From NCBI GenBank assembly GCA_024742875.1, contig JANSXP010000010.1:1-64000 (forward strand): a stretch of DNA of 64,000 bases, in the 5' to 3' direction. Made by a program: the position numbers and the translations under genes. The stretch comes from Planctomycetaceae bacterium. GTDB lineage: Bacteria > Planctomycetota > Planctomycetia > Planctomycetales > Planctomycetaceae. Positions 3,366 through 21,443 of the stretch are shown here, piece by piece. The notes beneath the pieces were generated by a model. That model worked only from the letters and a program-made list of their open reading frames with translations. It did not search any database and was not told the origin of the DNA. How positions within the stretch are numbered: the first letter of the stretch is position 1; each line of letters opens with the position of its first letter.

Positions 3366-3366
3366 G

Positions 3367-4353: not shown

Positions 4354-4383
4354 TCCCCTCGCGGATTCTGCAAAGGAGTCAAA

Positions 4384-5328
4384 ATGCAGGCATTGGAAGA
4401 CTGTCCTCAGATCACGATCGAACAATGTGATCAGTGTGGATCCGATCACATGACGCTCGCACTGGATGCGAAGCCGTGGACCCTGATGAGGTGTGAGGAC
4501 TGCGGTTTCGTTTTTACGTCGCCGCGACTCACTGACGAATCGCTGGCCCGCATCTACTCTTCGAACTACTACGAGAACGCGGTCGACTATGCGTCGCAGC
4601 AGGTGGAGCCACCGTCAGACGATCATTTGCAGCTGGCCTCGCGGATCCGTCGGCTGTTGCGGCCTGGTGCGGAACCGCTCACGTCGGTGGATGTGGGCTG
4701 CGGCGGTGGGCGACTGGTGGAAGCGTTCTCGCGAGCCGGCTTTCAGGCGTGTGGTATTGAGCCGAGTGAGGGGACGGTGGCTGCGGCCTGCCGTGCCGGG
4801 CGCGACGTTCGCGTGCAGGATCTGTCGGAGCTGCCCAGTGACGCCTTTGACTGCGTGACACTCATGCATGTGCTGGAGCACGTGACATCTCCTGCTTCTT
4901 TTGCGGCTGACCTGTATCGTGTGACTCGACCGGGCGGCTACTGCGTTGTCGAAGTGCCCAATTTTGGCAGCAGGGCAGCTCAGGAGCAGGGAGCGGAATG
5001 GTACCCCCTGCACCCGTCAACTCATCTGTCACACTTCACGCCACAAACGTTGCGGCAGTGTCTCACCAACGCCGGTTTTGGCATCGTGTCGACCAGTCGA
5101 CTTGGCGGCGGTGGTGTGTTCGACAGCGTGTCAGAAGCCTCACCCCGACAGAAGAAGGCTGGCCAGGTGCCGCCGCCGATGAGTCTGAAGCGTCGAGCGC
5201 TGGCTGCTGTCTGGGGGCTTCGATCCACTGTCACTTCGTTGCCGGCAGGACGTCGATTTGCCCGATGGGTCAACTGGGAACTGCTGGGGCATGGCGAGTT
5301 CGTTCGTGTCACGGCACAAAAGAACTGA
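4384..5328 (+). CDS. Zinc-ribbon SAM-dependent methyltransferase
   Basis: A 314-residue class I methyltransferase with an N-terminal zinc ribbon (Cys15, Cys18, Cys37, Cys40). The Rossmann motif I is VDVGCGGGRLVEAF near residue 101, with HVLEHV downstream and a PGGYCVVEVPN post-motif typical of Methyltransf_23. ATG 4384 has the best Shine-Dalgarno in the operon (AAAGGAGT, 4 bp spacer), so this gene may be translated independently of upstream genes. It lies 6 bp before a GT4 gene. It shares architecture with the genes at 554 and 16104 but differs in the linker and C-terminus. It ends TAQKN. Sugar O- or C-methylation is inferred from context only. Confidence 0.85.
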   Translation: MQALEDCPQITIEQCDQCGSDHMTLALDAKPWTLMRCEDCGFVFTSPRLTDESLARIYSSNYYENAVDYASQQVEPPSDDHLQLASRIRRLLRPGAEPLTSVDVGCGGGRLVEAFSRAGFQACGIEPSEGTVAAACRAGRDVRVQDLSELPSDAFDCVTLMHVLEHVTSPASFAADLYRVTRPGGYCVVEVPNFGSRAAQEQGAEWYPLHPSTHLSHFTPQTLRQCLTNAGFGIVSTSRLGGGGVFDSVSEASPRQKKAGQVPPPMSLKRRALAAVWGLRSTVTSLPAGRRFARWVNWELLGHGEFVRVTAQKN

Positions 5329-5334
5329 CCGACT

Positions 5335-6420
5335 ATGAAAATTGGACTGATTCTCAGCAGCCCCAGTCCCCATCAGGTGGAACTGATCGATGCGATTGCC
5401 GCACACCCGCAGGTGGACGCATTCGTGGGCTATGTGAAATCACACAATCCGGCTCGGCATTGGGGGCGCCCCGTCACCACGGCCGCATGGGAGAATCTGC
5501 CCACATCAGCGACCGACATTCTCTCCGGTCGGCTGCATGGATGGTTTCGCGAACGGCAGGCTGATGTGTGGTTGCTGTCCTCCGTCTACACGTCGCCCGC
5601 TACACACATGATCGCCCGTTTGCTGAGACGGCGCGGGGACGCCTTTGCTTTTCTTGGAGAACCGCCGCAACCACGCACCGGGTGGAGGGGGGCCGTGCAG
5701 ACGGCCCTGATGAAACCCGTCATCTCACGCGCCAGTGGCATCATTGGTACCGGTCAGGAGTCGGCGCGGCGGTATCAGTCGCTGTCACAGTCAAAAGTAC
5801 CCGTGACGTCTGTGCCGTACTGTGTGGATTTTTCGGCCCAGCTGCAGGGCACTCCGTTGACACCGCCCGCCGCCCATGAGCCCTACCGCTTTGTGGCATC
5901 CTCACAGCTGATTCATCGCAAGGGAATTGATGTCCTGTTGCAGGCCTGCCAGCTGCTCCCGGAGGAGGGGTGGACTCTGGATATTTATGGTGATGGTCCT
6001 TTGAAAAGCGTGCTGCAGGAGCAGTCTGCCCGAATGAGTGATCGGATCACATTTCATGGTCTGCTGCCATACGATCAGCGTCAGCAGGTGTTTGCCGGCA
6101 AGCACTGCTTTGTCTTCAGCACGCGGTGGGATGGCTGGGGCATGGTGCTCCCCGAAGCGCTCGCCATGGGGCTGCCTGTCGTTACGACTGACCAGGCCAT
6201 GAGCGCCCACGATTTCATTACCGACGGCGAAAACGGACAGATAGTTCCAGCCGCCGACCCGCAACGACTGGCGTCGGCGATGCGGCAGGCCATGGATTCT
6301 CGTCAGCAACTGCGTCAGCAGTCCATCGCTGCGCGGGATTCGCTGCGGGAGTATTCTCCGCACAGCGGCGCCCGACAACTCGTCGCGTTCCTGGCCCGTG
6401 TGGCCCGACCGGCGGCCTGA
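5335..6420 (+). CDS. GT4 glycosyltransferase
   Basis: A 361-residue retaining GT-B glycosyltransferase. The N-terminal Rossmann domain starts MKIGLILSSPSPHQ. The C-terminal domain holds SSQLIHRKGIDVLLQA (the usual start of Glycos_transf_1), DIYGDGPL and the PEALAMGLPVVTT block, which carries the glutamate of the EX7E-type site. ATG 5335 lies 6 bp after the preceding stop. It ends RPAA with GCG GCC TGA, the same last ten bases as several neighbours. Sugar specificity is unknown. Confidence 0.87.
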   Translation: MKIGLILSSPSPHQVELIDAIAAHPQVDAFVGYVKSHNPARHWGRPVTTAAWENLPTSATDILSGRLHGWFRERQADVWLLSSVYTSPATHMIARLLRRRGDAFAFLGEPPQPRTGWRGAVQTALMKPVISRASGIIGTGQESARRYQSLSQSKVPVTSVPYCVDFSAQLQGTPLTPPAAHEPYRFVASSQLIHRKGIDVLLQACQLLPEEGWTLDIYGDGPLKSVLQEQSARMSDRITFHGLLPYDQRQQVFAGKHCFVFSTRWDGWGMVLPEALAMGLPVVTTDQAMSAHDFITDGENGQIVPAADPQRLASAMRQAMDSRQQLRQQSIAARDSLREYSPHSGARQLVAFLARVARPAA

Positions 6421-6442
6421 TTTCCCAAAGAAAGAACCAACC

Positions 6443-7270
6443 ATGTTACAAGCGTTCGCCAAGTCCTGTATTCGTACCGTGATCGGGGCGACCAGCGGCG
6501 CGACCGTGCCGGTCCTGCGGGGCCCGCTGCGGGGCCGCCGAATGCTGCGACAGCACGGCCTGCCGCATCTCTCAATGCTGTTTGGCACATACGAACGCGT
6601 CTTTGCGGATGCTTTCAGTCTCCGAGTGCCCGAGGGCGATGTGATCTACGATATCGGGGCCAATGTGGGCTACTTTTCTCTGCTGGCTGCTGAACAGTGT
6701 CGCACAGGAGGGGTCGTGCATTCGTTTGAGCCTGTACCGGAACTGGTGGCCGATATGGAGGCCATGATGGATGCCAATCAGCTGCAAAGTCAGGTCACAA
6801 CACACACCGTAGCGCTGTCGGACAGCAACGGCACAGTGCAGTTTTATACGCCCGCATCAGCAGAAACCGGCGTGATCGCATCGGTGGCGGAAGGGCGTCA
6901 GCTGGCTGAAGAAACGGCGGTGGAAGTTGCCACACTGACGATGGACACGTTTGTCTTCGATCAGGGACATGCGCCCCCGGACGTCGTGAAACTGGATGTG
7001 GAAGGTGCCGAAGCCTGCGTGCTGTCGGGCGCTTTGCGAGTGCTGCGGGAACACCGTCCTGTTGTGCTGGTGGAAATTCACGGGGCTTTGGCGGCGGCTG
7101 ACGTCTGGGATGTGATCGCCCCGTTAAACTACGATCTTGCTCTGCTGACCCCCAGCGGCGACGTTCCTGTTCGGGACCGCACACAGTGGGTCGACCTGTT
7201 TGAAGGGTCGCGGTGGCGAATTCATCATTGTGTTCTGACTCCACGCGCCCGAGCAGCTCAGGCGGCCTGA
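6443..7270 (+). CDS. FkbM-family methyltransferase
   Basis: A 275-residue SAM-dependent O-methyltransferase of the FkbM type. VIYDIGANVGYFSLLA near residue 67 is the family's motif I. HSFEPVPELVADM and VKLDVEGAEACVL are the other diagnostic FkbM blocks. FkbM enzymes in polysaccharide loci usually methylate hydroxyls of glycan residues. ATG 6443 follows AAAGAACCAACC; an earlier in-frame start at 6398 would overlap the GT4 gene and lacks support. It ends AQAA (GCG GCC TGA). Confidence 0.88.
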   Translation: MLQAFAKSCIRTVIGATSGATVPVLRGPLRGRRMLRQHGLPHLSMLFGTYERVFADAFSLRVPEGDVIYDIGANVGYFSLLAAEQCRTGGVVHSFEPVPELVADMEAMMDANQLQSQVTTHTVALSDSNGTVQFYTPASAETGVIASVAEGRQLAEETAVEVATLTMDTFVFDQGHAPPDVVKLDVEGAEACVLSGALRVLREHRPVVLVEIHGALAAADVWDVIAPLNYDLALLTPSGDVPVRDRTQWVDLFEGSRWRIHHCVLTPRARAAQAA

Positions 7271-7293
7271 TACCGCAGCCTTTTTCCCAAGTC

Positions 7294-8580
7294 ATGACGA
7301 CAGCATCCCTTCAGCGCACCGCGGCCACTTCACGAATTCGCACCGGCCGGGCAACAGAATCCGTCAGCATCCCCCGGGGAATGCTGGCGGTCATCACCTT
7401 CATGCTGCTGGCCCTGTTCCTGCGGTCCAGCTCTTTGCCCACAGGAATTGCTCCGCGGCATCTGTTCATCGCCTGTAACTTCAGTCTGATGCTGGCCTTC
7501 TGCTATCTGGTGCTGAACTGGAAACTTGAGCTCGGAATTCCTGCCGTGATTCTCTCCGGATGTGCGCTGGTCAGCATCGCTGCGGCGAGAGATCAGGCAG
7601 ACACGCTGTTGAGGTGGGGCGGCTGGTTCCTCATGCTGGGGGCCGTCGGTCCGCTGTTTGTCAACGAAGTCAGGATGAAGCTCTCGGTCCTGAATGCAAC
7701 CCGTAGTCTGCTGCTCGTTTTGACAGTGGGCTCGCTGATCATCATTCTGCTGGGCATCAGACTGTCCGGCCGAGGCATGTTCTTCGGGCTCATGGGCCAC
7801 ACCATGCAGCTGGCGCCGATTGCCGCTCTGGCCACGCTGGACATATTCTGCGGTGTGAAAGGGCAGCGCACCCGGCTCGGTGTCTGCCTGCTGATTGTTT
7901 GCAGTCTGACGTGCGTTGGCACCGGTTCGCGGGGTGCCGTACTGGGGCTCGTGTGTGGCATTCTGGCCCATCTGATTCACCGTCGACAGGGCATCATCAT
8001 GATGATGTGCACGGCCATGGTCCTGCTGGGCTTTTATCACCTGGGACCCCGGAAGGCGCCGACGGCCGTGGGCGAAAATCTCAGCACAGGGCTGTATTCA
8101 GAGCTGATGGTGAAAGGCGCAAATAATACGCGGGAGTTCCTCTGGAATGCGCGGCTGCAGGAGTTTGAAAGCAGTCCGCTGATTGGCATCGGCTTTCAGC
8201 AGCAGCACATCCATCGAAGCAATACTCAGAGCCTTGAAGCCCGTGAGCCAGGATCCTCTTACCTGGCCACGCTGGCGATGACGGGCGTGGTGGGGGCAAT
8301 TGGTTTCGCGTTTGTGTACTTCCGGACCTTCCTCGCGCTGTTTGGCCGAAATTCTGCAGTCCCGCACGCTTACCGGGACCTGTTGAGAAGCTGGTTCGTG
8401 TTCTTTAGCGTGCACATGATTGTGGAAGGCTACGTTTTTGCCTGTGGCTCCGTGATTTGTTTTTTGCTGTGGCTCACCATCGGGTGCACCATCACGCTGC
8501 ACCACACGGGATTGCAGCGGCAGGCAAGGAAGCGACTGGCGACGCGCGTCCACCAGCTGAGGAGAAGGCAGGCGGCATGA
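7294..8580 (+). CDS. O-antigen polymerase/ligase-like membrane protein (Wzy_C type)
   Basis: A 428-residue polytopic inner-membrane protein with roughly ten or more hydrophobic helices after a 30-residue polar N-terminus. Between helices lies a segment with TGSRGAVLGLVCG and, later, a soluble loop carrying SSPLIGIGFQQQHIH. This layout is that of the O-antigen ligase/Wzy_C superfamily, which joins undecaprenyl-linked glycan units. It is the probable polymerase of the locus. ATG 7294 sits 23 bp after the previous stop. The gene end overlaps the next start as GCATGA, so the two are translationally coupled. It ends RQAA. Polymerase versus ligase cannot be separated by sequence. Confidence 0.75.
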   Translation: MTTASLQRTAATSRIRTGRATESVSIPRGMLAVITFMLLALFLRSSSLPTGIAPRHLFIACNFSLMLAFCYLVLNWKLELGIPAVILSGCALVSIAAARDQADTLLRWGGWFLMLGAVGPLFVNEVRMKLSVLNATRSLLLVLTVGSLIIILLGIRLSGRGMFFGLMGHTMQLAPIAALATLDIFCGVKGQRTRLGVCLLIVCSLTCVGTGSRGAVLGLVCGILAHLIHRRQGIIMMMCTAMVLLGFYHLGPRKAPTAVGENLSTGLYSELMVKGANNTREFLWNARLQEFESSPLIGIGFQQQHIHRSNTQSLEAREPGSSYLATLAMTGVVGAIGFAFVYFRTFLALFGRNSAVPHAYRDLLRSWFVFFSVHMIVEGYVFACGSVICFLLWLTIGCTITLHHTGLQRQARKRLATRVHQLRRRQAA

Positions 8581-9701
8581 CAATTCGTGTGATGCATTGT
8601 GTCAGAAGCCTCGCCGACGTCGACGGGGGGCCCGCTCGCTCCGTGCCGTCACTCGCTCAGGCCGTCGCCGATGCGGGATGTGATGTGACAATCTGGACGG
8701 CCGTGCCTCCCCGGATTGACGTGGATCGCTACCCGTCTGTGCGGTTTGTGTGTGGTGAACTGGAGGGCCTGCTCAAAGATGGTCCTGTTCCCGATCTTCT
8801 GCACGACCACGGCGTTTGGCTGCGAAACAATCATGAAGTCGCCAGAGCGAGCCGGCGGCACCGGATTCGCCGTATCGTGACGCCTCGCGGGATGCTCCAG
8901 CCATGGTGTCTGCGACACCACCGTGTCCGCAAGTCCGTTGCCTGGCACCTGTACCAGAATCGTGATCTGAAATCGGCTGATGCCCTGCACGCGACGTCAA
9001 CAGCCGAAGCGGAGCAGTTTCGTCGTCTGGGATTCCAACAGCCGACACTTTGCATCCCCAACGGAGTTCAGTTTCCGACCGCTTCCTCCTGTGTACCGAA
9101 GGCCAGCGACGATCAACAAGAGGCGCTGTTCCTGTCACGCATTCATCCCAAAAAGGGAATCGATCTGCTGCTGCAGGCCTGGGCACGCCTGAGGCCTGCC
9201 GGCTGGAGGCTGAGGATCGTCGGCAATGACGAGGACGGATATCGCTCCGTCATCGAGGCCATGGCCCGCCGGCTGGGCATTGACGAGCAGGTGGTCATCG
9301 AAGGCCCCGCTTTTGGGGAGGAGAAATGGGAGCGAATGTCTCAGGCTTCGCTGTTCGTCCTGCCGTCGCATTCCGAGAATTTTGGGATCGTGGTGGCCGA
9401 ATCCCTGGCGGCTGGGACCCCTGTGGTGACGACAACGGAGACCCCATGGACCGGTCTGCGAGATCGACAGGCGGGCTGGTGTGTGGGAGTGGACATTGAG
9501 AACATTGCCCGCGCTCTTGCTGAGGCGACCAGTACCCCGCCCGCAGTGCTGGCTGCGATGGGGCAGCGTGGACGGGACTGGGTCCGTGAGGAATTCAGCT
9601 GGGAGCTAATCGGCCGTCGTATGCAGACCGCTTACGAGAGTCTTCTGGAATCTTCGGCTAGGGGGCAGATGGGTATTCCAACCGAACGGGAGGCTGCATG
9701 A
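8577..9701 (+). CDS. GT4 glycosyltransferase
   Basis: A 374-residue GT-B enzyme. The N-terminal block VDGGPARSVPSLAQAV is a frequent GT4 signature. LHDHGVWLRNNH and TPRGMLQPW line the acceptor cleft. The C-terminal domain has FLSRIHPKKGIDLLLQAW, LRIVGNDEDGY and HSENFGIVVAESLAAGTPVV, which holds the EX7E glutamates. Its ATG overlaps the previous TGA by 4 bp and its own stop overlaps the next ATG by 4 bp. These overlaps suggest strict coupling of polymerase, GT4 and acetyltransferase. It ends EREAA. Confidence 0.88.
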   Translation: MTIRVMHCVRSLADVDGGPARSVPSLAQAVADAGCDVTIWTAVPPRIDVDRYPSVRFVCGELEGLLKDGPVPDLLHDHGVWLRNNHEVARASRRHRIRRIVTPRGMLQPWCLRHHRVRKSVAWHLYQNRDLKSADALHATSTAEAEQFRRLGFQQPTLCIPNGVQFPTASSCVPKASDDQQEALFLSRIHPKKGIDLLLQAWARLRPAGWRLRIVGNDEDGYRSVIEAMARRLGIDEQVVIEGPAFGEEKWERMSQASLFVLPSHSENFGIVVAESLAAGTPVVTTTETPWTGLRDRQAGWCVGVDIENIARALAEATSTPPAVLAAMGQRGRDWVREEFSWELIGRRMQTAYESLLESSARGQMGIPTEREAA

Positions 9702-10306
9702 GCCACTCACCACTGAAGATTCACACCAGCAAACAGGATTGCCCGAGTCCGCATTCCACAGCGAATAAAGTGGGGCGTGTGTTGTGGGCGACTGTTCGAT
9801 GGCTGCTGTTTCGCCCCTCCCCGCGAATTTTCTACGGCTGGCGGCGTCTGCTGCTGCGGTTGTTTGGTGCCTCTGTGGGCCGCAACGCACGGATTGCTCC
9901 GTCGGTGCGTATCTGGGCCCCGTGGAATCTGACGATCGGTGACGAAGTCTCCATCTCGCACGACGTCGACTGCTACTGTGTGGATCGCCTTGTGATTGGC
10001 GACAACGCCACGGTATCACAATACGCCATGCTGTGTACGGCTTCGCACGATGTGACAGATCCGGGAATGAAACTCATTTCCTCACCGATCACGCTGGAAT
10101 CGCAGTCGTGGATCTGCGCGGGCGCATTTGTTGGCCCCGGTGTCACAGTCGGAGCCGGTGCGGTGCTTGGTGCCAAAGCCGTGCTCATGAAGTCTGTGGC
10201 AGCATGGACCATTCATGGCGGCAATCCTGCTCGTTTCCTGAAACCGCGAGAGGTGGTCCGGCAGTTCAACGACGAGACGTCCCTGCCTGCCCGGTATGCT
10301 TCCTGA
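9698..10306 (+). CDS. WcaF-like left-handed beta-helix O-acetyltransferase
   Basis: A 202-residue acyl-CoA/acetyl-CoA acyltransferase with hexapeptide repeats. A basic amphipathic region (FYGWRRLLLRLFGASVGRN) leads into the beta-helix repeats. The helix contains TIGDEVSISHDVDCYC, a central ASHDV catalytic His, and SWICAGAFVGPGVTVGAGAV at the end. This arrangement matches colanic-acid-type acetyltransferases (WcaF/maltose acetyltransferase family). It is the last gene of the plus-strand operon and is coupled to the GT4 by an ATGA overlap. It is followed 37 bp later by a strong terminator. It probably acetylates a glycan residue. Confidence 0.85.
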   Translation: MSHSPLKIHTSKQDCPSPHSTANKVGRVLWATVRWLLFRPSPRIFYGWRRLLLRLFGASVGRNARIAPSVRIWAPWNLTIGDEVSISHDVDCYCVDRLVIGDNATVSQYAMLCTASHDVTDPGMKLISSPITLESQSWICAGAFVGPGVTVGAGAVLGAKAVLMKSVAAWTIHGGNPARFLKPREVVRQFNDETSLPARYAS

Positions 10307-10343
10307 TCGGCTGTCGCTGACATATGACACAGCGCTATGACGC

Positions 10344-10373
10344 AGGCCGCACCCTTCGAGTGCGGCCTTTTTT
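10344..10373 (+). terminator. Intrinsic terminator of the polysaccharide operon
   Basis: A 9-bp perfect stem (AGGCCGCAC with GTGCGGCCT) closes a 7-nt loop and is followed by six T. It lies 37 bp after the acetyltransferase stop. The T-run is on the plus strand only, so it does not serve the convergent GT2 gene that ends at 10419. Confidence 0.9.
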
Positions 10374-10418
10374 ATGCGCGGGTGTCTGCCTTCGGGGACG
10401 TGCCGCAGGAAGCCGGTT

Positions 10419-11372
10419 TCAGGCCGCCCGACGACCGGACGACACGGCTGGTGGCGTGGTGGTTGGCAGCGGCAGCGTGGCGGTCGCGGGTGTCTGCGGT
10501 CGTTCGCTGGTCACAGTGGCGAGTCGCCGCTGATGAAGTTTGGCGTGCACGTCAGAAATGTACTGGGCGCGGATACGGCAGGCAATCAGGCCCGCGCGAC
10601 CCTCCAGAAAGCCCATCCGCAGCACGTAGTGATTGAAGAACCAAACCCAGTGCTCCAGCGGCAGGCGGCAAACCAGCTGCTTCAGAAAGCGTCGGCGTTC
10701 CTGAGCGTTGCCAAACAGGCGTGGGCGGATGGTTTCTTCTCCCCATTCACCGTGATCGAAGTAGCGGGCCCGCACGGCCGCTTCCCAGTCAGAGTAATTG
10801 TTATGCCGCGCGAGATACGCATTGAGCCCCTTGAAGTCCTCATGAATCAGAGGTGTGGCGAGCTGGCCCACGCTGCCGTCCACCACGACGCGCTCGTGGA
10901 CTTCCATGTCCATCCCACCGGGATTCTCGTCCATGATGTGCTCAAAATGAGCAGTGCCGGTCTGAAACAGCAGGACGGCAGTATGAGAAAAGCCTCCGTA
11001 ACGGAATCTGCGGCCCAGAAAGTGAAACCCTTTTCGAATCATGTAGCCCGCTTTGGGGTGTGGATCAGAGACCGCTGCTTCAATTTCCTGCAGCAGTTCT
11101 GCAGGCACCACTTCATCGGCGTCCAGCAGCAGCACCCATGGCGTGCTGATGTCAACATTGTCCAGGGCCCACTGACGTTTCTTGGGGTAGCCGCCATGGT
11201 ATTCAAACTGCCAGACTTCCGCACCACATTCTTCCGCGATCCGGGATGTGTCGTCTGTGCTGCCGCTGTCGACAACGACGATTCGTTCCATGCAGCTGAC
11301 TGCCTGCAGGCAGCGCGCAATGTTGGGAGCTTCATTTCTGACCGCGATAACCACGGTGACAGGCAGAGTCAT
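10419..11372 (-). CDS. GT2 glycosyltransferase, WaaE/KdtX-like
   Basis: A 317-residue GT2 enzyme. VTVVIAVRNEAPNIARCL starts the fold, then VVVDSGSTDDTS, the block YPKKRQWALD and LLLDADEV (DxD). In the second half, DENPGGMDMEVHERVVVDG, PLIHEDFKGLNAYLARHNNYS and a membrane-proximal WFFNHYVLRMGFLEG segment are characteristic of the WaaE/KdtX group, which adds sugars to LPS-core-like acceptors. It converges on the main operon and is transcribed alone from the 11373-11738 region. It ends GRRAA, sharing the Ala-Ala terminus although on the other strand. Confidence 0.85.
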   Translation of the reverse strand: MTLPVTVVIAVRNEAPNIARCLQAVSCMERIVVVDSGSTDDTSRIAEECGAEVWQFEYHGGYPKKRQWALDNVDISTPWVLLLDADEVVPAELLQEIEAAVSDPHPKAGYMIRKGFHFLGRRFRYGGFSHTAVLLFQTGTAHFEHIMDENPGGMDMEVHERVVVDGSVGQLATPLIHEDFKGLNAYLARHNNYSDWEAAVRARYFDHGEWGEETIRPRLFGNAQERRRFLKQLVCRLPLEHWVWFFNHYVLRMGFLEGRAGLIACRIRAQYISDVHAKLHQRRLATVTSERPQTPATATLPLPTTTPPAVSSGRRAA

Positions 11373-11738: not shown

Positions 11739-12260
11739 ATGCGAACGCAATTGGTCTGGACGTTAATCATCTCGATGACGTTCCTGCCCGCCCAGGCGGT
11801 TTACGGCGGGCCTTCGACGAATCAGTCGGAGCAGACTGTCCGTCTGAAGAATGTTGAACTGAGTGAAACCGGAACGGTTCAGGGACGCCTGCTGGATGCT
11901 GCCGGCAAGCCGATGGCTGGCAAGGAAATCGAAATTCGAACCAGGAACTCTGCCCAAAAGCAGACGACAGATGCACGGGGTCAGTTCACCGTGAAGTCAG
12001 AGCAGGGTTGCAGCTGTGCAATCTTCGTTGACAAAAAAGCCTACGCGTGCCGCGTATGGAAAAAAGGCACGGCACCACCGAAGTCACTGACTTCGTTTGG
12101 AATCGTGCATCACGAAGGTGCAGTGGTTCGCGGCCAGTATGATGACGAAGAAGGCATCATCGGCGGCGTCAGCAACGGACAGTTGCTGGGACTTGGCCTG
12201 CTGGCCGGTGCAATTGTCGCGATCGTGATCGCAGCCAATAACGATGATGATGGAAGCTAA
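11739..12260 (+). CDS. CRVW/APP family secreted protein, copy 1 (carboxypeptidase-regulatory-like fold)
   Basis: A 173-residue protein with a signal peptide (cleavage probably after residue 20-23, LPAQA/VYGG). A domain of about 80 residues follows (VRLKNVELSETGTVQGRLLD, GKPMAGKEIEI, TTDARGQFTV), resembling transthyretin-like/carboxypeptidase regulatory domains. Next come the family hallmark YACRVWKKGTAPP and then VVRGQ. The C-terminus is a Gly-rich hydrophobic helix ending in NNDDDGS. ATG 11739 follows AAAAGGACTTAGAAAA. It is the first of three tandem paralogues (fourth at 46789), each with its own terminator. Function unknown; a surface or periplasmic location is inferred. Confidence 0.85.
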   Translation: MRTQLVWTLIISMTFLPAQAVYGGPSTNQSEQTVRLKNVELSETGTVQGRLLDAAGKPMAGKEIEIRTRNSAQKQTTDARGQFTVKSEQGCSCAIFVDKKAYACRVWKKGTAPPKSLTSFGIVHHEGAVVRGQYDDEEGIIGGVSNGQLLGLGLLAGAIVAIVIAANNDDDGS

Positions 12261-12283
12261 CTAAGCTTCGATGTATCAGATTC

Positions 12284-12320
12284 AAGCCCCCGAAGCGTTC
12301 GCCGCTTGGGGGCTTTTTTT
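12284..12320 (+). terminator. Intrinsic terminator after paralogue 1
   Basis: AAGCCCCC-G-AAGC pairs with GCTT-GGGGGCTT around a short loop, followed by seven T. It lies 24 bp after the stop of copy 1 and separates it transcriptionally from copy 2. Confidence 0.92.
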
Positions 12321-12357
12321 GTGCGCAACTGGTATAGCCGGCAGAGATGGCAGCACT

Positions 12358-12380
12358 CGTGATCTGACCGGCAGATCACG
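12358..12380. repeat. 9-bp inverted repeat upstream of paralogue 2
   Basis: CGTGATCTG, ACCGG, CAGATCACG: perfect arms, no T-run. It lies 86 bp before the start of copy 2, and its outer arms match those of the repeat at 11531-11559. A direct GACAGTCTC repeat follows near 12418-12440. A shared regulatory site for the two paralogues is a guess. Confidence 0.55.
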
Positions 12381-12465
12381 CCGAACCTTCAGAAGAATGA
12401 CTGGACGCATGACGAAGACAGTCTCGGGGAGACAGTCTCTGGTCAATCATTAGGAGTCGCGAGTC

Positions 12466-13011
12466 ATGCGCGCCGTCGTCGTTGGGGTCCTTATCCCCGC
12501 TCTGGTCCTGTCGAACACACTGGCTGCGGATGATGCCCTGTCGGGCCCCGCACCTGTTCGACGCGTGGAACGTCCACTGGAATGGAAAAACGTATCTCTG
12601 GACAATGCTGGTCGTCTGTCAGGTCAGGTGGTCAATAAGACGGGGCAGCCCATCGTTGAGGCAGAATTGCTGGTCGAACAACAGGGAGCCACTCAGGTTG
12701 TCAAATCAGCCTCAGACGGTCGTTTTGCTGTCTCCGGACTCAGGTCCGGGCCATGCGTGATTCGCATGGGAGAGGAGACATTCGCGTGCCGCGTGTGGGA
12801 ACAGAAAATCGCGCCCCCCGGCTCGCTCAGAACGCTGGCCGTGGTCAGCCAGACTGACATCGTTCGTGGAAATTTGCTGCCCCCACTGCCTCTGATTCAG
12901 CCAGGGCACGGTATTCTCGGCGGCAATCATTTTGGTCTCGTCCTGCTGGGCCTTGGCGGAGCGGCCATTGCGATCGGTGCTTCTCAGGATGACAACGACA
13001 ACGCCAGCTAG
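12466..13011 (+). CDS. CRVW/APP family secreted protein, copy 2
   Basis: 181 residues. The signal peptide MRAVVVGVLIPALVLSNTLA is followed by ADD. The same order as copy 1 is kept: WKNVSLDNAGRLSGQVV, GQPIVEAELLV, SDGRFAVSGLRSG, then FACRVWEQKIAPP, DIVRGN, a Gly/Ala helix and the acidic tail DDNDNAS. ATG 12466 has a clear ribosome site (AGGAGTCGCGAGTC). Sequence divergence from copies 1 and 3 is large outside the motifs, so the duplication is old or the family evolves quickly. It is flanked by terminators on both sides, so it is probably monocistronic. Function unknown. Confidence 0.85.
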   Translation: MRAVVVGVLIPALVLSNTLAADDALSGPAPVRRVERPLEWKNVSLDNAGRLSGQVVNKTGQPIVEAELLVEQQGATQVVKSASDGRFAVSGLRSGPCVIRMGEETFACRVWEQKIAPPGSLRTLAVVSQTDIVRGNLLPPLPLIQPGHGILGGNHFGLVLLGLGGAAIAIGASQDDNDNAS

Positions 13012-13080
13012 GCGACAGCCGTCGGCTGAAGGTGTCTCCCGGACGTGCGACCACTCCCAGGGGACTTTGAGCACTCACTG

Positions 13081-13119
13081 ACCCCGCTACCGGTTTTTCC
13101 CCGGTGGCGGGGTTTCTTT
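13081..13119 (+). terminator. Intrinsic terminator after paralogue 2
   Basis: ACCCCGC-T-ACCGG pairs with CCGGT-G-GCGGGGT around a T-rich loop, followed by TTCTTTG. It is placed 69 bp after the copy 2 stop. Confidence 0.85.
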
Positions 13120-13263
13120 GTGGTTATCCAGTTTGCCTGACCATTATGGCCGCCGGCATTTGGATTCGTTCGCCGGCCCACTGCCTCCCTGATTTCAGTC
13201 AGCATGTTCACCCTGACGAATTTTCGAACGGACAATCAATCATTCGTCGAAAGGAATCGAACG

Positions 13264-13791
13264 ATGCGCACTCACTTGACGTGGATGCTGGTGGCCATTC
13301 TGGTAGCCGCCCCGCAGACCACCATGGCCGTTGAGCAGACTGAGCGGGTCTCACTGTCCAACATTGAACTCACCACAGCAGGCACACTGCAGGGCCTGCT
13401 TGTCACAGCCGACGGACGGCCAATCGCAGGCGAGTCAGTTCGCATTCATGCGCAGTCTGACCTGAAATCTGTGCAGCACCAGGTGACCACAGATCGCAAC
13501 GGCCGATTTCAGGTCTCCGGACTTCGAACCGGCACACTGGTTGTGAGTGTGCAGGACAAGAGCTACGCCTGCCGTGTCTGGTCGGCCGGTATCGCTCCCC
13601 CCAATGCGGTGAAGACAGCCGCCTTTGTAACGGGTGAACGCGTTGTGCGCGGGCAGGACGGTCGTCGATTTGGCATCATGGACCGAATCTACTCGCTCTC
13701 CACCCGGCAGAAAGTGTGTCTGGGACTGATCGTTGCTGCGGCCGTCGCCATTCCGATCGCCCTGGACGACGACAACGACAACGCCAGCTAA
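13264..13791 (+). CDS. CRVW/APP family secreted protein, copy 3
   Basis: 175 residues from ATG 13264, which follows AAAGGAATCGAACG; an earlier ATG at 13204 would place a polar extension before the signal peptide. The N-terminus MRTHLTWMLVAILVAAPQTT parallels copy 1 (MRTQLVWTLIISMTFLPAQ). Then come VSLSNIELTTAGTLQGLLV, GRPIAGESVRIH, TTDRNGRFQVSGLRTG, YACRVWSAGIAPP, VVRGQ, a hydrophobic helix and DDDNDNAS. The last eight residues nearly equal those of copy 2. It has its own terminator. Function unknown; the regular spacing of motifs supports one shared fold across the family. Confidence 0.86.
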   Translation: MRTHLTWMLVAILVAAPQTTMAVEQTERVSLSNIELTTAGTLQGLLVTADGRPIAGESVRIHAQSDLKSVQHQVTTDRNGRFQVSGLRTGTLVVSVQDKSYACRVWSAGIAPPNAVKTAAFVTGERVVRGQDGRRFGIMDRIYSLSTRQKVCLGLIVAAAVAIPIALDDDNDNAS

Positions 13792-13820
13792 CGACAATTT
13801 TTGACGAGGTGATTGAGATC

Positions 13821-13855
13821 AGCCGTCTGTGCCACAGGTGCCGACGGCTTTTTTG
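13821..13855 (+). terminator. Intrinsic terminator after paralogue 3
   Basis: AGCCGTC pairs with GACGGCT, with a 15-nt loop that can pair further (CTGTG with CACAG). Six T follow. It lies 29 bp after the copy 3 stop. Confidence 0.85.
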
Positions 13856-13951
13856 TGCGCTGTGACCAGACCTCGGAATGGAGAGTGTCTACACAGACGG
13901 TCCGACGGCGTTATGATGGAGAAAATCACATCCCATTACTGAAGGGCCTCC

Positions 13952-14941: not shown

Positions 14942-16099
14942 TTACGCGGCCTCAATGCGTGGGGCGTCTGCCGCTGTGGTTGTCGCGAGACACGCTTCAC
15001 CTTCAGCGACCTGTCGATCCGGGCAAACCGATGCAAGCAGTGCCTGCAGGCTGTTGCGGACCGCCTGTTCACTGAAGTGCTGCCGATACTGATGACTGGC
15101 GGCCCGCCCCTGATCGGCCAGTTTGTCATCGGTGTGACTGAGCAGCCGTGTGACACTCGCCACGATGCTTTCCGGCGAGCCGGCTTCTGCCCAGTTGATC
15201 CCCGTGTGTTCTGCCGCCGCGTCAAGCAGGGACGTCGGATACGCGTCGGACGAGCGGGTGACGACAGGACGGCCACAGGCCATGGCCTGATAGACTTTAT
15301 TGGGGATGACACGAGCCGCCTTGTGAGACGTGCCGAAGATTCCCATCACCGCATGAGAATCTGCGATCGCCGTCTTTAGCTCCGTGTAGGGCACATTGCT
15401 GCGAAATCGGATATGGGTACACCGGGACGCAAGACGGCGACAGCCTGGTGTGAGCGGCCCCTCTCCAATCATCAGCCAGTCGCACTGCGGCATCTGCCTT
15501 GCGGCCGCCACAATATGCTCCGGACCCTGCAGGCCGATATAACTGCCGTAGAACAGGATTCGCCTTCGACAGCCACCCTTCGGGAATGTTGTTGGGTGAA
15601 ACAGGCTTTCTTCGGCCGATACGGGAATCACGTGCAGCCGGTTTGGCTGCACCCGATGAACTGATGCAAACAACTCGGCGTGCCCCCGTGTATCGGCGAC
15701 AACGGCCGTGCTGTTTCGCAGCAGATGGGACTCCCAGTTCAGCAGTCGACGGGCCCCTGCGGAATGTTCCGGAAACTTGCCGCGTTCAAACACCTGCTTG
15801 TCCCAGGCGCTGATGAGTGGGTCAAGGACGACAGGGATCTGATGTCGTGATGCCCACTTCTGCGCTGCGGCCGCATCCCGCTGACGAAAGCAGGGGACCC
15901 ACAACAGATCGGCCGTGGGCACTTTTTGCAGACGCGCCTGCCAATGAGCCGTCTGGCTGAACAGTGGACAGAAGTCCTCAATCTGCCAGCCCAGATACTG
16001 GAACGCTCTGCGGACAATGCGGTCGCGCGAATAGTCACGTCCCGATCGGCTCCACCACAAAACCGTGGGCGGACCAGGATTGCGGGGGACCCCCGTCAT
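14942..16099 (-). CDS. GT4 glycosyltransferase
   Basis: A 385-residue GT-B enzyme. The N-terminal half (TVLWWSRSGRDYSRDRIVRR) carries a DxxxxDR-like opening seen in this subgroup. The C-terminal domain has RILFYGSYIGLQGPEHIV, WLMIGEGPL, and RVIPNKVYQAMACGRPVVTR in place of the usual E-x7-E block. I chose ATG 16099, 4 bp after the methyltransferase stop; the ATG at 16141 would overlap that gene by 38 bp. It is the last gene of the minus-strand group. It ends RIEAA (GCC GCG TAA). Sugar specificity unknown. Confidence 0.82.
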   Translation of the reverse strand: MTGVPRNPGPPTVLWWSRSGRDYSRDRIVRRAFQYLGWQIEDFCPLFSQTAHWQARLQKVPTADLLWVPCFRQRDAAAAQKWASRHQIPVVLDPLISAWDKQVFERGKFPEHSAGARRLLNWESHLLRNSTAVVADTRGHAELFASVHRVQPNRLHVIPVSAEESLFHPTTFPKGGCRRRILFYGSYIGLQGPEHIVAAARQMPQCDWLMIGEGPLTPGCRRLASRCTHIRFRSNVPYTELKTAIADSHAVMGIFGTSHKAARVIPNKVYQAMACGRPVVTRSSDAYPTSLLDAAAEHTGINWAEAGSPESIVASVTRLLSHTDDKLADQGRAASHQYRQHFSEQAVRNSLQALLASVCPDRQVAEGEACLATTTAADAPRIEAA

Positions 16100-16103
16100 C
16101 AGA

Positions 16104-17075
16104 TCAGGCTGCCTTCCCGGAGACCTGTGGCGGTGCTTCATCTCCGCAGCGATTGATCAGATCACTGACGAAACGCCTGGCACGCAGGTGCTCGTCAGCG
16201 TAGGTGGCCAGCTTTCGCATGCGATCGGTTACATAGCGAACCCGCGCGTGGTAGGGGAGGAAGTCTGAGCGACCGAGCTGCTCGACCGTGCGACGGTAAT
16301 TGTCTTCGTCAATCTGCAGCTCACAGCTGCCTGAATGCTGGAACAGCATCTGCAGGTTGGGATCCTGATCGTCGCCAAACCGCTTGCGGAGTTTGAATCC
16401 ACAGGACTCCGCCAGCATCTGGAGCGTCGAGGGCACAAAGTTGTGAATATGAGCGGAATGGAACAGCCGCTTCCGACGAGCAAACGGTGCCTGCAGGTTA
16501 GGACATTCCACATAGAACATGCCGCCCGGTTTCAATAGACCGGCAATGTGCTCCAGTGCCTGACGGGGGGAGCGGAGGTGTTCGATCACATGCACCAGCA
16601 GGACGGCTTCAAATGACTGATCCTCGGGCAGCTGGTACAGATCCGTGATCTGCACGCTGGCATTAAGCTGATCGCGGGAGAACTTGAGAAACTCTCCACC
16701 AGGATCAATGCCCTCAGCACGAAAGCCCTGCCGTTCAAACACTTTCACCGTGCAGCCGATCCCGGCGCCGACTTCAAGAACGCGGCAGCCAGGTTCCAGC
16801 AGTGGACCGACCTGCCCACAGATTCGCTGACCGTTATTCCACGCACGCATGATGCGGCGAGCTCCCGGCACCTTCTCGCCATTGTAATCTTCACGATAGG
16901 TGGTGGAGTAAAAACGGTTGAGTTCTGCTTCCGTAGGGACGGCGGCGTGCCGCACGAGGCCGCAGTGGGTGCACACAGCCGTATCGAGCGGCGCACCGTG
17001 TCGATCAGTCCGGCCGATGATCTCAAATTTGTCATGTCCACACAGGTCGCAGGGACTCACTGACATCGTGTTCAT
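16104..17075 (-). CDS. Zinc-ribbon SAM-dependent methyltransferase
   Basis: A 323-residue class I methyltransferase and the third in this locus with an N-terminal zinc ribbon (Cys9, Cys12, Cys35, Cys38). Motif I is VLEVGAGIGC around residues 94-103. HVIEHL and LLKPGGMFYVECPN are further Methyltransf_23 blocks. The N-terminal region up to FYSTTYREDYN resembles methyltransferases of sugar-nucleotide pathways. ATG 17075 or 17066 could start. It is 73 bp downstream of the ELM1-like gene and 4 bp upstream of the GT4, so part of one operon. It ends SGKAA. Substrate unknown. Confidence 0.85.
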   Translation of the reverse strand: MNTMSVSPCDLCGHDKFEIIGRTDRHGAPLDTAVCTHCGLVRHAAVPTEAELNRFYSTTYREDYNGEKVPGARRIMRAWNNGQRICGQVGPLLEPGCRVLEVGAGIGCTVKVFERQGFRAEGIDPGGEFLKFSRDQLNASVQITDLYQLPEDQSFEAVLLVHVIEHLRSPRQALEHIAGLLKPGGMFYVECPNLQAPFARRKRLFHSAHIHNFVPSTLQMLAESCGFKLRKRFGDDQDPNLQMLFQHSGSCELQIDEDNYRRTVEQLGRSDFLPYHARVRYVTDRMRKLATYADEHLRARRFVSDLINRCGDEAPPQVSGKAA

Positions 17076-17148
17076 CCTTGAACGTCAGAGTTTCGTTGAA
17101 AGTCAGGAAGGGAGTGTACGTCAGATGGCCGTCCTGCGGGAATGCCGA

Positions 17149-18105
17149 TTAGGCGGCTTCCCCTGCGATTTCAGGCTCTCGGTGTCGTGTCCAGCTGAGA
17201 CGGTTCAGCAGTTCACGACTGCAGCGTTCCGCCTCCCAGACTGTCGTGGCGGGGCGGGGAAGGTGCCGTGACTTGGTCCAGGCCGACCAGCGCTGCACAT
17301 CTCCATCACGGACCAGAAGATCCGTGCATTCGGTGACGCGGTTGTCGCGATGTCGACTCAGTTCCAGCACGCCCACACTGGCACCGGAAGTGAGAGCTTC
17401 ATACATCATCGACACACTGTCTTCTGTGACCCAGGCGGATTCTGCGCGCGACAGCTGCGAGGGAAGCCAGGCAGGATCCGTGTCCTCGGGCCGGACGATT
17501 CGCAGGGCCGAATCACACGTCCCCAGCGCTTTAAGAAACGACGGAGGAGTCCGTCGGGATGTCGCAATGGTCCATGGCTGTTCTGATCCGCTCAAGACCT
17601 CGCGGATCTGCCGGCAGATTTGTTCGTCTGACCAGCGGTAGTGTGCTGAGGGGCCGCCAATCAGCATCAGGCCGCCCACTCGCTCGGTGTTGGTCCGTGG
17701 CTGTACGCGATTAAGCACGCCCTTTGTTTCCAGGACGTTGTCGGGTGGGGTTTCCAGCTGGTGCACGCTCGGAATCAGGCAATAGTCAAACCAGTGAAAT
17801 GGGAGGCTTGGTTTCATCAGCACCACCGAACAAGCGGCAAATCGATGCCGCAGCACGACCAGAGGCAGATGTGTGCGGTGACCAGCTCCGATGACCAGGT
17901 CCGGCGATGCTGCGTGCCCGCTCAATTGCCTGCTGCTGCGATACAGTGTGCCCAGCCGTCCGCGGGGCGTGGTCAGGTCAACGCAGCAGACGTGGGCATC
18001 CACCATGCCGGACAGCTGATCGGCCAGACCCAGAACCTGATTCTGATGCCCGTGTCTGCCGTCCATCAGACACCAGATCGTCTTGCTGTGGGCTGCTTCT
18101 GACAC
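17149..18105 (-). CDS. ELM1/GtrOC1-family putative nucleoside-diphosphate-sugar epimerase or transferase
   Basis: 318 residues. The opening WCLMDGRHGHQNQVLGLADQL, then PDLVIGAGHRTHLPLVVLRH and LMKPSLPFHWFDYCLIP, match the bacterial homologues of mitochondrial fission protein ELM1. The C-terminal half continues with LIGGPSAHYRWSD, TSRRTPPSFL and AWVTEDSVSMMYEALTSGASVGV. That last block resembles the nucleotide-binding end of GT-B enzymes, so a glycosyltransferase role is plausible. It lies 12 bp downstream of the ABC exporter gene, suggesting the two act together. It ends AGEAA. Confidence 0.8.
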   Translation of the reverse strand: MSEAAHSKTIWCLMDGRHGHQNQVLGLADQLSGMVDAHVCCVDLTTPRGRLGTLYRSSRQLSGHAASPDLVIGAGHRTHLPLVVLRHRFAACSVVLMKPSLPFHWFDYCLIPSVHQLETPPDNVLETKGVLNRVQPRTNTERVGGLMLIGGPSAHYRWSDEQICRQIREVLSGSEQPWTIATSRRTPPSFLKALGTCDSALRIVRPEDTDPAWLPSQLSRAESAWVTEDSVSMMYEALTSGASVGVLELSRHRDNRVTECTDLLVRDGDVQRWSAWTKSRHLPRPATTVWEAERCSRELLNRLSWTRHREPEIAGEAA

Positions 18106-18117
18106 GTCCGTTCCTGC

Positions 18118-20109
18118 CTAGGCGGCCGCCGATCGGTTGATTCCCGCCTGAGTCAGGCTGCGGTAAATTTGACAGGATTTGAGCAGGTCATCGTGTCGTC
18201 CGGTCGCGACAATCTGCCCCTGATCCATAACAACAATTCGGTCGACAAGATCCAGAAATGTTTCGCTGAGCACATGGGTGATAATGAAGACTGTGCGCCC
18301 GACGGCAAATTTCTTCAGCACGGTGTTGATCAGATCCTCACTTTGAGCGTCCACAGCCGACGTGGCTTCATCGAGAATCAGAATTGACGGATCCCGTACG
18401 ATCGCTCGGGCGAGCGCGATACGCTGCCGTTGTCCACCGGAAAGTCGTTTTCCGCCAATCCCGATTTCCGTCTCCATGCCGTCCGGAAATCGATCGATGA
18501 ATGACGTCACGTGTGCCTGCTCGGCGGCTGCCTGAATTTGCTCGGCCGTCGCGTCCGGGTTGCCGTAGCGAATGTTTTCATAGATGGTGTCGTTGAACAA
18601 CATGGTGTCCTGAGTCACCAGTCCGATCTGAGATCGCAAATCGTTCGTGGCGACACTGCGGATATCCGTGCCGTCAATTTTGACGGTGCCGCTGTCGGCG
18701 TCCATGAATCGAGGCAGCAGTGCCAGCAGCGTGGATTTGCCGCTGCCGTTGGGCCCCACAATGGCCACCACTTCGCCCGATTTGACCTGCAGATTGACTT
18801 TGGTCAGTGCGGCATCGCGTTTGATGGAGGTGTCCAGGCTGGGATAGCGATAGGAAATGTCTTCGAAGCGAATGTTTTCGCCGTGACGCGGCATCACCAG
18901 CGGAGCGTCGACCTCCGGAACCGTGCTTTCCCGGTCCACCAGCGCAAACACTCGGTCTGCTCCGGCCAGGCCCTGCTTGATCACGCCGAACACGGAGGAC
19001 AGTTTTCGCAGGGGGTCGAGTGTGCCCGCCAGAAACACGTACAGCGTCATGACGTCGGTGATGGTCAGCTGACCGGCTGCCAGCTGCACGCCAAACAGAA
19101 ACTTGGTGCCTCGCAGGACAAGATAGGCGCCCGGTGCGAATGCCAGCATCACGGCGATCACCCCAAAAAGTTCCGTGGTGGGCCGGATGAGGGAATGGAC
19201 TTTGACCATTTTCATCGTCTGGCGATAGTAGTCGTCGTTGGAGGCGCGAAACTTTTCCAGCTGCCGCTGCTGGCCGCCAAACGCGGTGACGATGCGAAAC
19301 GAATCAAATGTTTCCGAGATGTTGTCATAGATGCGGGCAATGCTCTGCATGGCGCGATGGGCCGCTTTTTTCAGCTTGCGACCAACACTCGAAAGGAAGA
19401 TGCCGATGACGGGGACAATCACCAAAGCCAGCAGGGTGAGACGCCAGTTCAGGTAAAACGCGGCGCCGATGCATGCCGCTGCCTTCAGCGGTTCACGTAT
19501 CAGTTTGGTCCCAAAAGCACTGTAGCCAACCGCCAGTTGCATGATGTCGTTGGTCATGCGTGCCATCAGGCTGGCCGAACCTTCGTTCGCGATGGCCTGA
19601 CTGTCGAGGTTCAGGCAGGCTTGAAAACAGTCGGCCCGGATGTCATTGGTGGCACGGTAAATGACACTGCCCACGAGTAGTTCCTGCAGGTAGATCAGCG
19701 CGCACTTGAGCACCGTGGAAACCACGACCAGCACGAGAATCAACGACAGTGTGCTGAATTTGTCATCAGGAACCAGCGGGACAACGTATCTGTTCAGCCA
19801 TGAATAGTACTGAACGCTCCGTGACGCCTCACTGATCTTCCGTTGCAGCCGGGCCCGTTTTTCGAATTCCGCCTGGTCGATCGTGGCAAGGTATTCGGTC
19901 TTCTCGGCAACCTCCCGCTGATTCAAAGCGATATTTCGCTCGATGTAGACGGGAATGCTCTCTTCTTCAAACAGCACATTGACGACCGGATACACGGCCG
20001 ACAGATTCGCACACCACAGCGCAGCGATACCCACGGCGCAGACAACAGACACCAGAAACCGTGTCTTGTATCTCCAGAAGTACTCAGCAACGCGAGTGAA
20101 GTTATTCAT
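18118..20109 (-). CDS. MsbA-like ABC exporter (fused transmembrane and ATPase domains)
   Basis: A 663-residue half-transporter from ATG 20109, chosen because family members start at this point (MNNFTRVAEYFWRYKTRF) and AGGAG lies just upstream; ATG 20130 would add seven residues. Six transmembrane helices occupy about residues 15-380, with a charged insertion after the first helix (residues 45-100). The ATPase domain is intact: Walker A GPNGSGKST, Q-loop TQD, signature LSGGQ, Walker B ILILDEATSAVD and switch ITH. It probably exports a lipid-linked glycan or glycolipid made by the neighbours. It ends RSAAA. Confidence 0.88.
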   Translation of the reverse strand: MNNFTRVAEYFWRYKTRFLVSVVCAVGIAALWCANLSAVYPVVNVLFEEESIPVYIERNIALNQREVAEKTEYLATIDQAEFEKRARLQRKISEASRSVQYYSWLNRYVVPLVPDDKFSTLSLILVLVVVSTVLKCALIYLQELLVGSVIYRATNDIRADCFQACLNLDSQAIANEGSASLMARMTNDIMQLAVGYSAFGTKLIREPLKAAACIGAAFYLNWRLTLLALVIVPVIGIFLSSVGRKLKKAAHRAMQSIARIYDNISETFDSFRIVTAFGGQQRQLEKFRASNDDYYRQTMKMVKVHSLIRPTTELFGVIAVMLAFAPGAYLVLRGTKFLFGVQLAAGQLTITDVMTLYVFLAGTLDPLRKLSSVFGVIKQGLAGADRVFALVDRESTVPEVDAPLVMPRHGENIRFEDISYRYPSLDTSIKRDAALTKVNLQVKSGEVVAIVGPNGSGKSTLLALLPRFMDADSGTVKIDGTDIRSVATNDLRSQIGLVTQDTMLFNDTIYENIRYGNPDATAEQIQAAAEQAHVTSFIDRFPDGMETEIGIGGKRLSGGQRQRIALARAIVRDPSILILDEATSAVDAQSEDLINTVLKKFAVGRTVFIITHVLSETFLDLVDRIVVMDQGQIVATGRHDDLLKSCQIYRSLTQAGINRSAAA

Positions 20110-20300
20110 CCGCTCCTGTTTCGATTCCATTCGGCAGGTCTTGAAGCGTTTGGGGGGCGTGGGGCAGGGGCGACAGCTGCGAGGCCGTGTCCCTGGCCTC
20201 GGATGCACTCGGAATTACACCATGGATGAAGGAATTGTGTCTACAGCAGTTTTTGCCACGGTTGCAGGGCTGTAAGTTACTGTCAGTAAACACTTTGAGG

Positions 20301-21443
20301 CTAGGCGGCCTGTCGCTGCTCGCAGCCGGCGGTCAGCTCGTCATAGAGTTGCAGCTCGGCCTGCTGCATGGCGGCAAGGCTGAATTGATGACCTGCTGGG
20401 GGTGGCGAAATTTTGCCATCCATCGCAGCGGCTATCTGCGTCGCCAGAAAGTCCACGTCCTGCAGGGGCACACAGCCGGCGGGGAACACTGTCGACAGCA
20501 CTTCGCCAACGCCCCCGTGAGCATAGCCGAGAGTGATTTTTCCCAGCCGGACCGATTCCAGTACGGCCCGGCCAAAGCTCTCTGGTGGTCGGATGGATGT
20601 GGAGATGGATACATCACAGATGCTGATCACATCCTTGATGTCACTGCGATGGCCCGTGAACACGACCTGCCGATCCAGCCCCAGTGTGCGAATACGAGCA
20701 CGCAGTTCCTGCGAGTAGGCCTGGCGTCGGGGATCTTCACCGCCCGCGATGACGCCATGAACAATTCGCCCATCGGCATTCAACTGAGCCAGAGCCTCGA
20801 GAAAGTCGAGGTGCCCTTTGAATCGCGTGACCCGACCGGGCAGGCAGGCCACAAATTGATCTCGTAGCTGCGGATAAGTGTCATACCACTGCTGCTGCCA
20901 GGCAGAATCGGGTCGGTAGCCATGCGGAAATTCATCGGGCGATACACCGCGGTGAATGACGCGGACTTTGGTGGCGTCCACATCCGGATAGCAGGCAAGC
21001 AGATAGTCCCGACAGGTGTTCGAGACGGCAATCACAGTCTCACCGCGCGTCATGATTCTGCTGTAGGCGTTCGGTTTATTCATGCCGTGGGCCGTGGTGA
21101 TGAATGCCGGCCGAGCTTCAGCCGGCAATCGTCTCCACGCCAGCCAGGTGACCCACGCCGGTACTCGTGATCGCGCATGCATCACATCCGGTCGCACCGT
21201 CTGCATCCAGCGACGCATGGCGGGCACCTGCAACAGCGTCAGCGGGCTTTTCTTCCAGACCGGCATGGTGACATGTTCGCCTCCTTCCGCTTCCAGCTGA
21301 GGCACCATTCGACCGCCGCCGGAAATCACGATGCTGCGATGACCGGCAGCTACCAGAGCACGGTTGATTTCCAGCGTCCCGCGCTCCACACCACCGGAGT
21401 TGAGCTGCGGCAGTAGCTGCACAATTGTCTGACGTCCTGTCAT
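20301..21443 (-). CDS. GT4 glycosyltransferase
   Basis: A 380-residue GT-B enzyme. The opening LLPQLNSGGVERGTLEINRAL is a classic GT4 N-terminus. HARSRVPAWVTW and TTAHGMNKPNAYSRIM follow. The C-terminal domain has LPGRVTRFKGHLDFLEAL, VFTGHRSDIKDVISICDV and PPESFGRAVLESVRLGK, which carries the EX7E-type glutamates. It resembles lipopolysaccharide-core and exopolysaccharide GT4 enzymes. It is 30 bp downstream of a small conserved gene and 191 bp upstream of the ABC exporter. It ends EQRQAA (GCC GCC TAG). Confidence 0.88.
   Translation of the reverse strand: MTGRQTIVQLLPQLNSGGVERGTLEINRALVAAGHRSIVISGGGRMVPQLEAEGGEHVTMPVWKKSPLTLLQVPAMRRWMQTVRPDVMHARSRVPAWVTWLAWRRLPAEARPAFITTAHGMNKPNAYSRIMTRGETVIAVSNTCRDYLLACYPDVDATKVRVIHRGVSPDEFPHGYRPDSAWQQQWYDTYPQLRDQFVACLPGRVTRFKGHLDFLEALAQLNADGRIVHGVIAGGEDPRRQAYSQELRARIRTLGLDRQVVFTGHRSDIKDVISICDVSISTSIRPPESFGRAVLESVRLGKITLGYAHGGVGEVLSTVFPAGCVPLQDVDFLATQIAAAMDGKISPPPAGHQFSLAAMQQAELQLYDELTAGCEQRQAA

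Follow-up and report, generated by a model that had tools for sequence, protein, structure and literature searches.

Three genes for small proteins stand in tandem on the forward strand of the window, the whole stretch of 64,000 nucleotides analysed here: gene 1 (11739–12260; 173 residues, tail -NNDDDGS), gene 2 (12466–13011; 181 residues, tail -DDNDNAS) and gene 3 (13264–13791; 175 residues, tail -DDDNDNAS). For gene 3 the listed reading frame starts at 13204, and a purine-rich stretch before 13264, recognised by eye, favours the start adopted here. The similarity of the three proteins is far above chance, with pairwise BLASTP identities of 38, 33 and 29% (E 1e-28, 9e-22 and 3e-21), and both the reading frames and these alignments bear out the initial annotation, which had described tandem paralogues of just these lengths. 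The genome carries eight family copies, four of them inside the window; the fourth (46789–47313, reverse strand; 174 residues, tail -DDDDAPASP) lies 5' of, and adjoins, a gene for a secretin of type II/III secretion (42330–46280, reverse strand), a neighbourhood that recurs in six genomes of the window's genus.

The array is flanked on both sides by glycan genes, as had been claimed at the outset and as Pfam assignments confirm. The left part of this glycan locus (683–11372) comprises glycosyltransferases, a Wzy_C-like protein, methyltransferases and a hexapeptide transferase, and the right part (14942–21443, reverse strand) two glycosyltransferases, a methyltransferase, an ELM1-like protein and an ABC transporter; between gene 3 and the latter lies a gene of the 3-keto-disaccharide hydrolase family (PF06439; 13952–14692, forward strand). 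Each gene of the array had further been credited with its own promoter space and terminator, and the second half of that description holds the better. Terminator-like stems on the forward strand were found by folding 3' of all three genes, namely a stem with a T run at 12288–12322 (fold z -2.4), a highly stable stem whose T run is weak at 13078–13118 (z -6.7) and a stem with a T run at 13816–13856 (z -3.5), whereas a strict scan detected only the one behind gene 2. A scan for sigma-70-like promoters, the one promoter type it addressed, found none before any of the three genes, so that the "promoter space" amounts to mere intergenic spacing of 205 and 252 bp.

Domain architecture and C-terminal signature

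Each protein consists of a signal-peptide-like start (called from hydropathy and by eye), a single prealbumin-like sandwich of the CarboxypepD_reg type, a hydrophobic segment and an acidic tail. The Pfam profile PF13620 scores gene 2 at 35.2 and gene 3 at 40.0 bits, above its cut-off of 32.3, and gene 1 at 25.8 bits, below it; the match on gene 3 spans residues 41–102, and the profile recognises 76 of 82 aligned family members with E values of 0.001 or below. Structure prediction, one of the checks originally proposed, returned a prealbumin-like core and a tail region of low confidence. In the AlphaFold2 model of gene 3, computed from five sequences, eight strands occupy residues 32–123 of a sandwich assigned to residues 30–124 (13351–13635, forward strand), with block pLDDT values of 76–89 over residues 31–120, little that is reliable beyond them and an overall mean of 60; the membrane segment and tail score below 50 in this model and in a second one, which has the fourth copy as its first sequence, and no helix is predicted there. 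Foldseek and VIA-align group the core with CnaB, transthyretin and carboxypeptidase regulatory domains, one structural match being 3e8v (Z 9.1, rmsd 1.8, 76 residues aligned), and carboxypeptidase D chains are also among the matches. As modelled, the fold is thus a prealbumin-like beta sandwich, in agreement with the transthyretin-like or carboxypeptidase-regulatory fold first assigned from the sequence. Matches to a NikL-type ECF transporter subunit (NF058648), seen in 22 of the 82 members (best 2e-6) and absent from the first member, probably reflect the shared domain fold only.

All of the motifs initially listed for these proteins are present, but the supposed hallmark ACRVW does not survive comparison with the 82 relatives, in which it reduces to xRxW, the Cys being often replaced and not conserved. 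Invariant throughout the alignment are G80, W106, A111 and P112, with R104 in 81 of 82; the letters of the VRGQ that follows are kept in 58 (V), 79 (R), 75 (G) and 73 (Q) members. On gene 3 the ACRVW..APP stretch (residues 102–113; 13567–13602, forward strand) covers the last part of strand 7 together with the loop after it: in the AlphaFold model YACRVW closes the strand and APP forms the loop behind it, a placement with which the second model concurs, whereas VRGQ (residues 128–131; 13645–13656, forward strand) is predicted at low confidence. Both models therefore put CRVW-APP inside the sandwich, at its last edge, which rules out an added element and corrects the earlier view, in which it belonged to no nameable family. 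The tail is another matter, and no family was found for it, as had been supposed.

Beyond the domain, a stretch of variable sequence in the 82-member alignment leads to the hydrophobic segment, which is present in 72 members; owing to this variation no common cutting site is seen. The extreme terminus is by comparison fixed. It reads SP, AS or GS in 67 of 82 members (42, 16 and 9, respectively), compared with 18 of 666 non-family genes at these loci (5, 10 and 3), where gene calls follow a simple codon score and the relatives' start codons a hydropathy rule. In a wider set, a sample rather than whole genomes, such an ending is carried by 63 of 77 family genes and by 40 of 1554 non-family genes, and only two of those 40 ends come after a hydrophobic stretch; one of the two genes (L154:5329-5793) ends in -DLDALDSP, a somewhat similar tail. 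The terminus -SP/-AS/-GS is a trait of the family. The net charge of the tail is acidic in 69 members, neutral in eight and basic in five.

Distribution and genomic neighbourhoods

These proteins represent a lineage-restricted, multi-copy family of small exported proteins in the class Planctomycetia, apparently undescribed, in that no paper on it was found, judging by titles and the starts of abstracts. When a profile of eight rows was run over 294 genomes of the phylum, a sample that includes few genomes of this class, full-length relatives among the matches listed occurred only in the families here designated f1 and f7, the other listed matches being weak and mostly inside long proteins. The profile search for copy number that had been proposed was extended across the class with an 82-row profile, on which alone class-wide membership rests, and 110 of 397 genomes were positive (best E <1e-15) in f1, f5, f7, f100, f101, f104, f106 and f111; with eight candidates scored per genome, some absences within this class-only search may be false. 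The 30 positive genomes of a chosen set hold two to eight family genes each. No plasmid relatives were detected by tblastn at 1e-3. In several draft genomes, family genes stand no more than a few hundred bases from a contig end (C253, C260, C212 and C51 of G003; C88 of G001; C599 and C898 of G005), and among six such ends no common repeat was found; the ends of C88 and C288 in G001 have 55 identical bases in common.

In a tree of the 82 members, genes 1, 2 and 3 fall into three separate subclades, the other members of which sit at various loci, and the array is accordingly not the product of one recent tandem amplification. The clade that holds these subclades contains rows only from the window's genus or G012. 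In the gene 3 group, four of seven rows, the window included, continue into a 3-keto-disaccharide hydrolase gene (three of the six other members).

The orthologous group of gene 1 numbers nine rows in eight genomes (G000, G001, G002, G003 twice, G004, G006, G007 and G012), and all nine adjoin a glycan-type gene for a glycosyltransferase, hexapeptide transferase or carbamoyltransferase, assigned in part by Pfam and otherwise by sequence cluster. The neighbour lies on the same strand in eight cases and on the opposite strand in the window; in G012 it is a carbamoyltransferase gene, the first on its contig. This association is confined to the gene 1 group. As a trait of the whole family it is ruled out for GT4, since only one of 19 family loci in six single-contig genomes has a GT4 gene within 10 kb, against 0.9 expected, a comparison that covered GT4 as its one glycosyltransferase class (129 genes at E 1e-8 or better) and took its loci from the profile searches. 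The initial annotation had tied the proteins to glycan loci and proposed to look for such proximity elsewhere; that search upholds the tie for gene 1 orthologues and, on GT4, denies it to the family at large.

These counts bear directly on the notion of glycan-associated surface proteins, which would bind, or help to place, the polysaccharide that the neighbouring genes produce. The unbroken adjacency of gene 1 orthologues, mostly on one strand and occurring twice in G003, speaks for it, as does another family group found tail to tail with a sugar transferase gene at five of eight loci; set against the chance-level GT4 count and the location of the relatives of genes 2 and 3 at other loci, we nevertheless regard it as unlikely for the family. 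Plausibly, it is gene 1 among the paralogues that serves the glycan cluster.

The proteins of the glycan locus display a feature of their own. Between positions 600 and 21500 of the window, 12 of 21 end in -Ala-Ala, often as RRAA or RKAA, compared with two of 31 in the remainder of the window and nine of 275 across roughly 400 kb of this genome (Fisher p 1.2e-10, calculated on genes that, within one locus, are related and not independent). Such ends occur at 683–21443 of the window, at the loci L070, L073, L074, L076 and L179 and, in other genera, at L190, L191, L195 and L196. In clusters orthologous to that of the window 16 of 25 glycosyltransferases carry this end, as against one of 12 in other glycosyltransferase clusters of G004 and seven of 46 in those of other genera, the latter concentrated in a few clusters. 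The codons and stop codons of these ends vary, so that the peptide itself seems to be selected; one guess is that it might act as a ClpXP-type terminal degron. Genome G000 also has seven matches to exosortase (TIGR02602), four of them over the cut-off, on contigs C153, C33, C76, C7 and C113 and none on the contig of the window.

An accompanying putative zinc peptidase

One group of the family stands directly 3' of a gene for a DUF1570-type peptidase in six genomes of the window's genus, in four other genera of f1 and at all five f100 loci examined. A peptidase profile, built from 13 sequences, every one of them beside a family gene, was run on 42 chosen genomes, 30 family-positive (about 15 of these outside the profile) and 12 family-negative, and revealed two paralogues, alpha and beta, separated by score alone. 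Alpha (1.8e-79 or better) is present in every positive genome but G390 (29 of 30) and in none of the 12 negative ones; beta (3.4e-70 or weaker) occurs in 40 of the 42. In 19 of 29 genomes (f1 and f100) alpha has a family gene less than 1 kb downstream in the same orientation, with 57–425 bp between the matched stretches, and none of 41 copies of beta has one, although these linkage counts lean alpha's way because the 13 peptidases of the profile all adjoin family genes. In the remaining ten genomes alpha and the family are both present and unlinked.

Co-occurrence extends across the class. With an alpha cut-off of 1e-72, 91 of 397 genomes have both, 19 the family only, nine alpha only and 278 neither; the two lists come from the same genome draw as far as the genome handles show. 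Alpha is thus found in 91 of 110 family-positive and nine of 287 family-negative genomes, with an odds ratio of 148 that treats related genomes as separate and a Fisher p of 3e-59 that ignores kinship and, the genomes being related, is not taken as proof. Every alpha-positive genome in f1 also has the family, and each of the 100 alpha-positive genomes has exactly one alpha. Most of the exceptions stood when examined. In the nine alpha-only genomes a fuller search found no family member save one weak match within a 1227-residue frame; in G671 this search covered the best 150 of 168 candidates. Among the 19 family-only genomes, six of which belong to one genus (g246), a closer search found no peptidase in G609, a partial second match in G533 and G655, two full-size matches that score as beta in each of G668 and G507, and a single match (1e-55 to 1e-69) in each of the others. 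The pairing is therefore strong but not obligatory.

Such exceptions in both directions are what would be expected if these were ordinary envelope proteins of a common fold, linked to the peptidase through shared ancestry and one old operon, and prealbumin-like domains are indeed common surface modules. We give this explanation a low likelihood, in view of the size of the class-wide association and its persistence in the ten genomes where the genes are unlinked.

Alpha itself has the marks of a metallopeptidase. An HExxH with a downstream Glu constitutes the gluzincin pattern, and both HExxH and the Glu of EGxAE are invariant in all 13 peptidases; DUF1570 (PF07607) matches alpha in 13 of 13 members scanned at E 0.01 or better, the alpha of the window's genome scoring 24.0 bits against a cut-off of 22. 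A sequence search of the PDB gave no convincing relative (best E 0.48). At three loci in three other genera (L119, L124 and L129) a DUF1571-type gene, identified by Pfam in the last two, comes immediately after the alpha–family gene pair in the same orientation, and a DUF1571 gene is present in the window at 60473–61360. At the f100 loci L200, L201, L202, L204 and L205, genes for CpsB/CapC and an M24 peptidase lie 5' of the peptidase and family genes, an assignment made by Pfam on L202 and by similar gene size on the other four.

One predicted zinc peptidase, alongside several proteins that are probably held in a membrane and have a motif and a terminus in common, suggests the pattern of an enzyme with its clients. 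Tentatively, and as a little less than an even prospect, we propose that the family works with alpha in this way, its members being clients or partners. The signal peptide would carry a family protein across the inner membrane, leaving outside the sandwich with RxW..AP on its last strand and loop, followed by VRGQ; the hydrophobic segment would anchor the protein in the membrane, and the short acidic tail with its fixed terminus (-SP, -AS or -GS) would come last. Alpha and the family proteins would meet outside the inner membrane, as we infer from N-terminal signals recognised by eye in both. A single alpha enzyme would then serve several clients scattered over the genome, recognising an invariant face or the terminus of each, and by cutting or holding a client would decide whether its domain remains on the membrane; the paralogues may have come to stand next to different envelope functions, as the glycan cluster, the secretin and the sugar hydrolase suggest. 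It is a doubtful, more specific form of this proposal that the exported peptidase reads the RxW..AP..VRGQ face as well as the fixed terminus and, through cleavage or retention of its clients, controls several envelope machines, the polysaccharide exporter and the secretin included. Against the proposal, an acidic tail is unusual on the cytoplasmic side of a membrane, and some copies keep a conserved neighbourhood without the peptidase.

The roles could also be reversed, with the family proteins acting as inhibitors or membrane anchors of the peptidase and not as its substrates. M14 carboxypeptidases carry a transthyretin-like domain behind the catalytic domain; chains of this type are among the fold matches of the family, and the order of peptidase and then family gene on one strand would suit such an arrangement. 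With up to eight genes for a single peptidase, and most copies unlinked, clients fit better than inhibitors, and we consider this reversal improbable. The family proteins may thus be clients or partners of alpha rather than general proteins of a sugar coat. Planctomycetes have an unusual cell envelope, rich in proteins of no known function; a family that exists in several copies, and in which an invariant motif and a fixed terminus go with a peptidase to match, offers a concrete and testable pair.

Relation to known systems

In both sequence match and fold the family agrees with PF13620 CarboxypepD_reg, from which it differs in that the match stops before RxW..APP..VRGQ and in that each protein is a single domain, extended C-terminally by a hydrophobic segment and a fixed acidic terminus. 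The peptidase is in turn related to PF07607 DUF1570, which alpha matches, and of its two paralogues only alpha accompanies the family. In general design the pairing resembles the PEP-CTERM/exosortase and GlyGly-CTERM/rhombosortase systems, in which one processing enzyme serves many exported proteins that have a hydrophobic segment near the C terminus (PMC1569441; PMC3237569); PEP-CTERM is also tied to exopolysaccharide. The differences are equally clear. PEP-CTERM has a near-invariant Pro-Glu-Pro ahead of a C-terminal helix and a basic cluster behind it, the tails of both PEP-CTERM and LPXTG proteins being basic (PMC1569441), whereas our 82-member alignment has no Pro-Glu-Pro column and its tails are acidic in 69 cases; on this description, membership in PEP-CTERM is ruled out. 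Unlike the PEP-CTERM and GlyGly-CTERM signals, moreover, the terminus was not found on other domains in the sample of 1554 genes, the single possible case noted above aside, and the candidate enzyme, in place of an exosortase or rhombosortase, is a predicted zinc peptidase of the DUF1570 type. If the proposal is true, the family and alpha would provide another instance of the design put forward for exosortase and rhombosortase, one enzyme with many clients, built around a different kind of enzyme.
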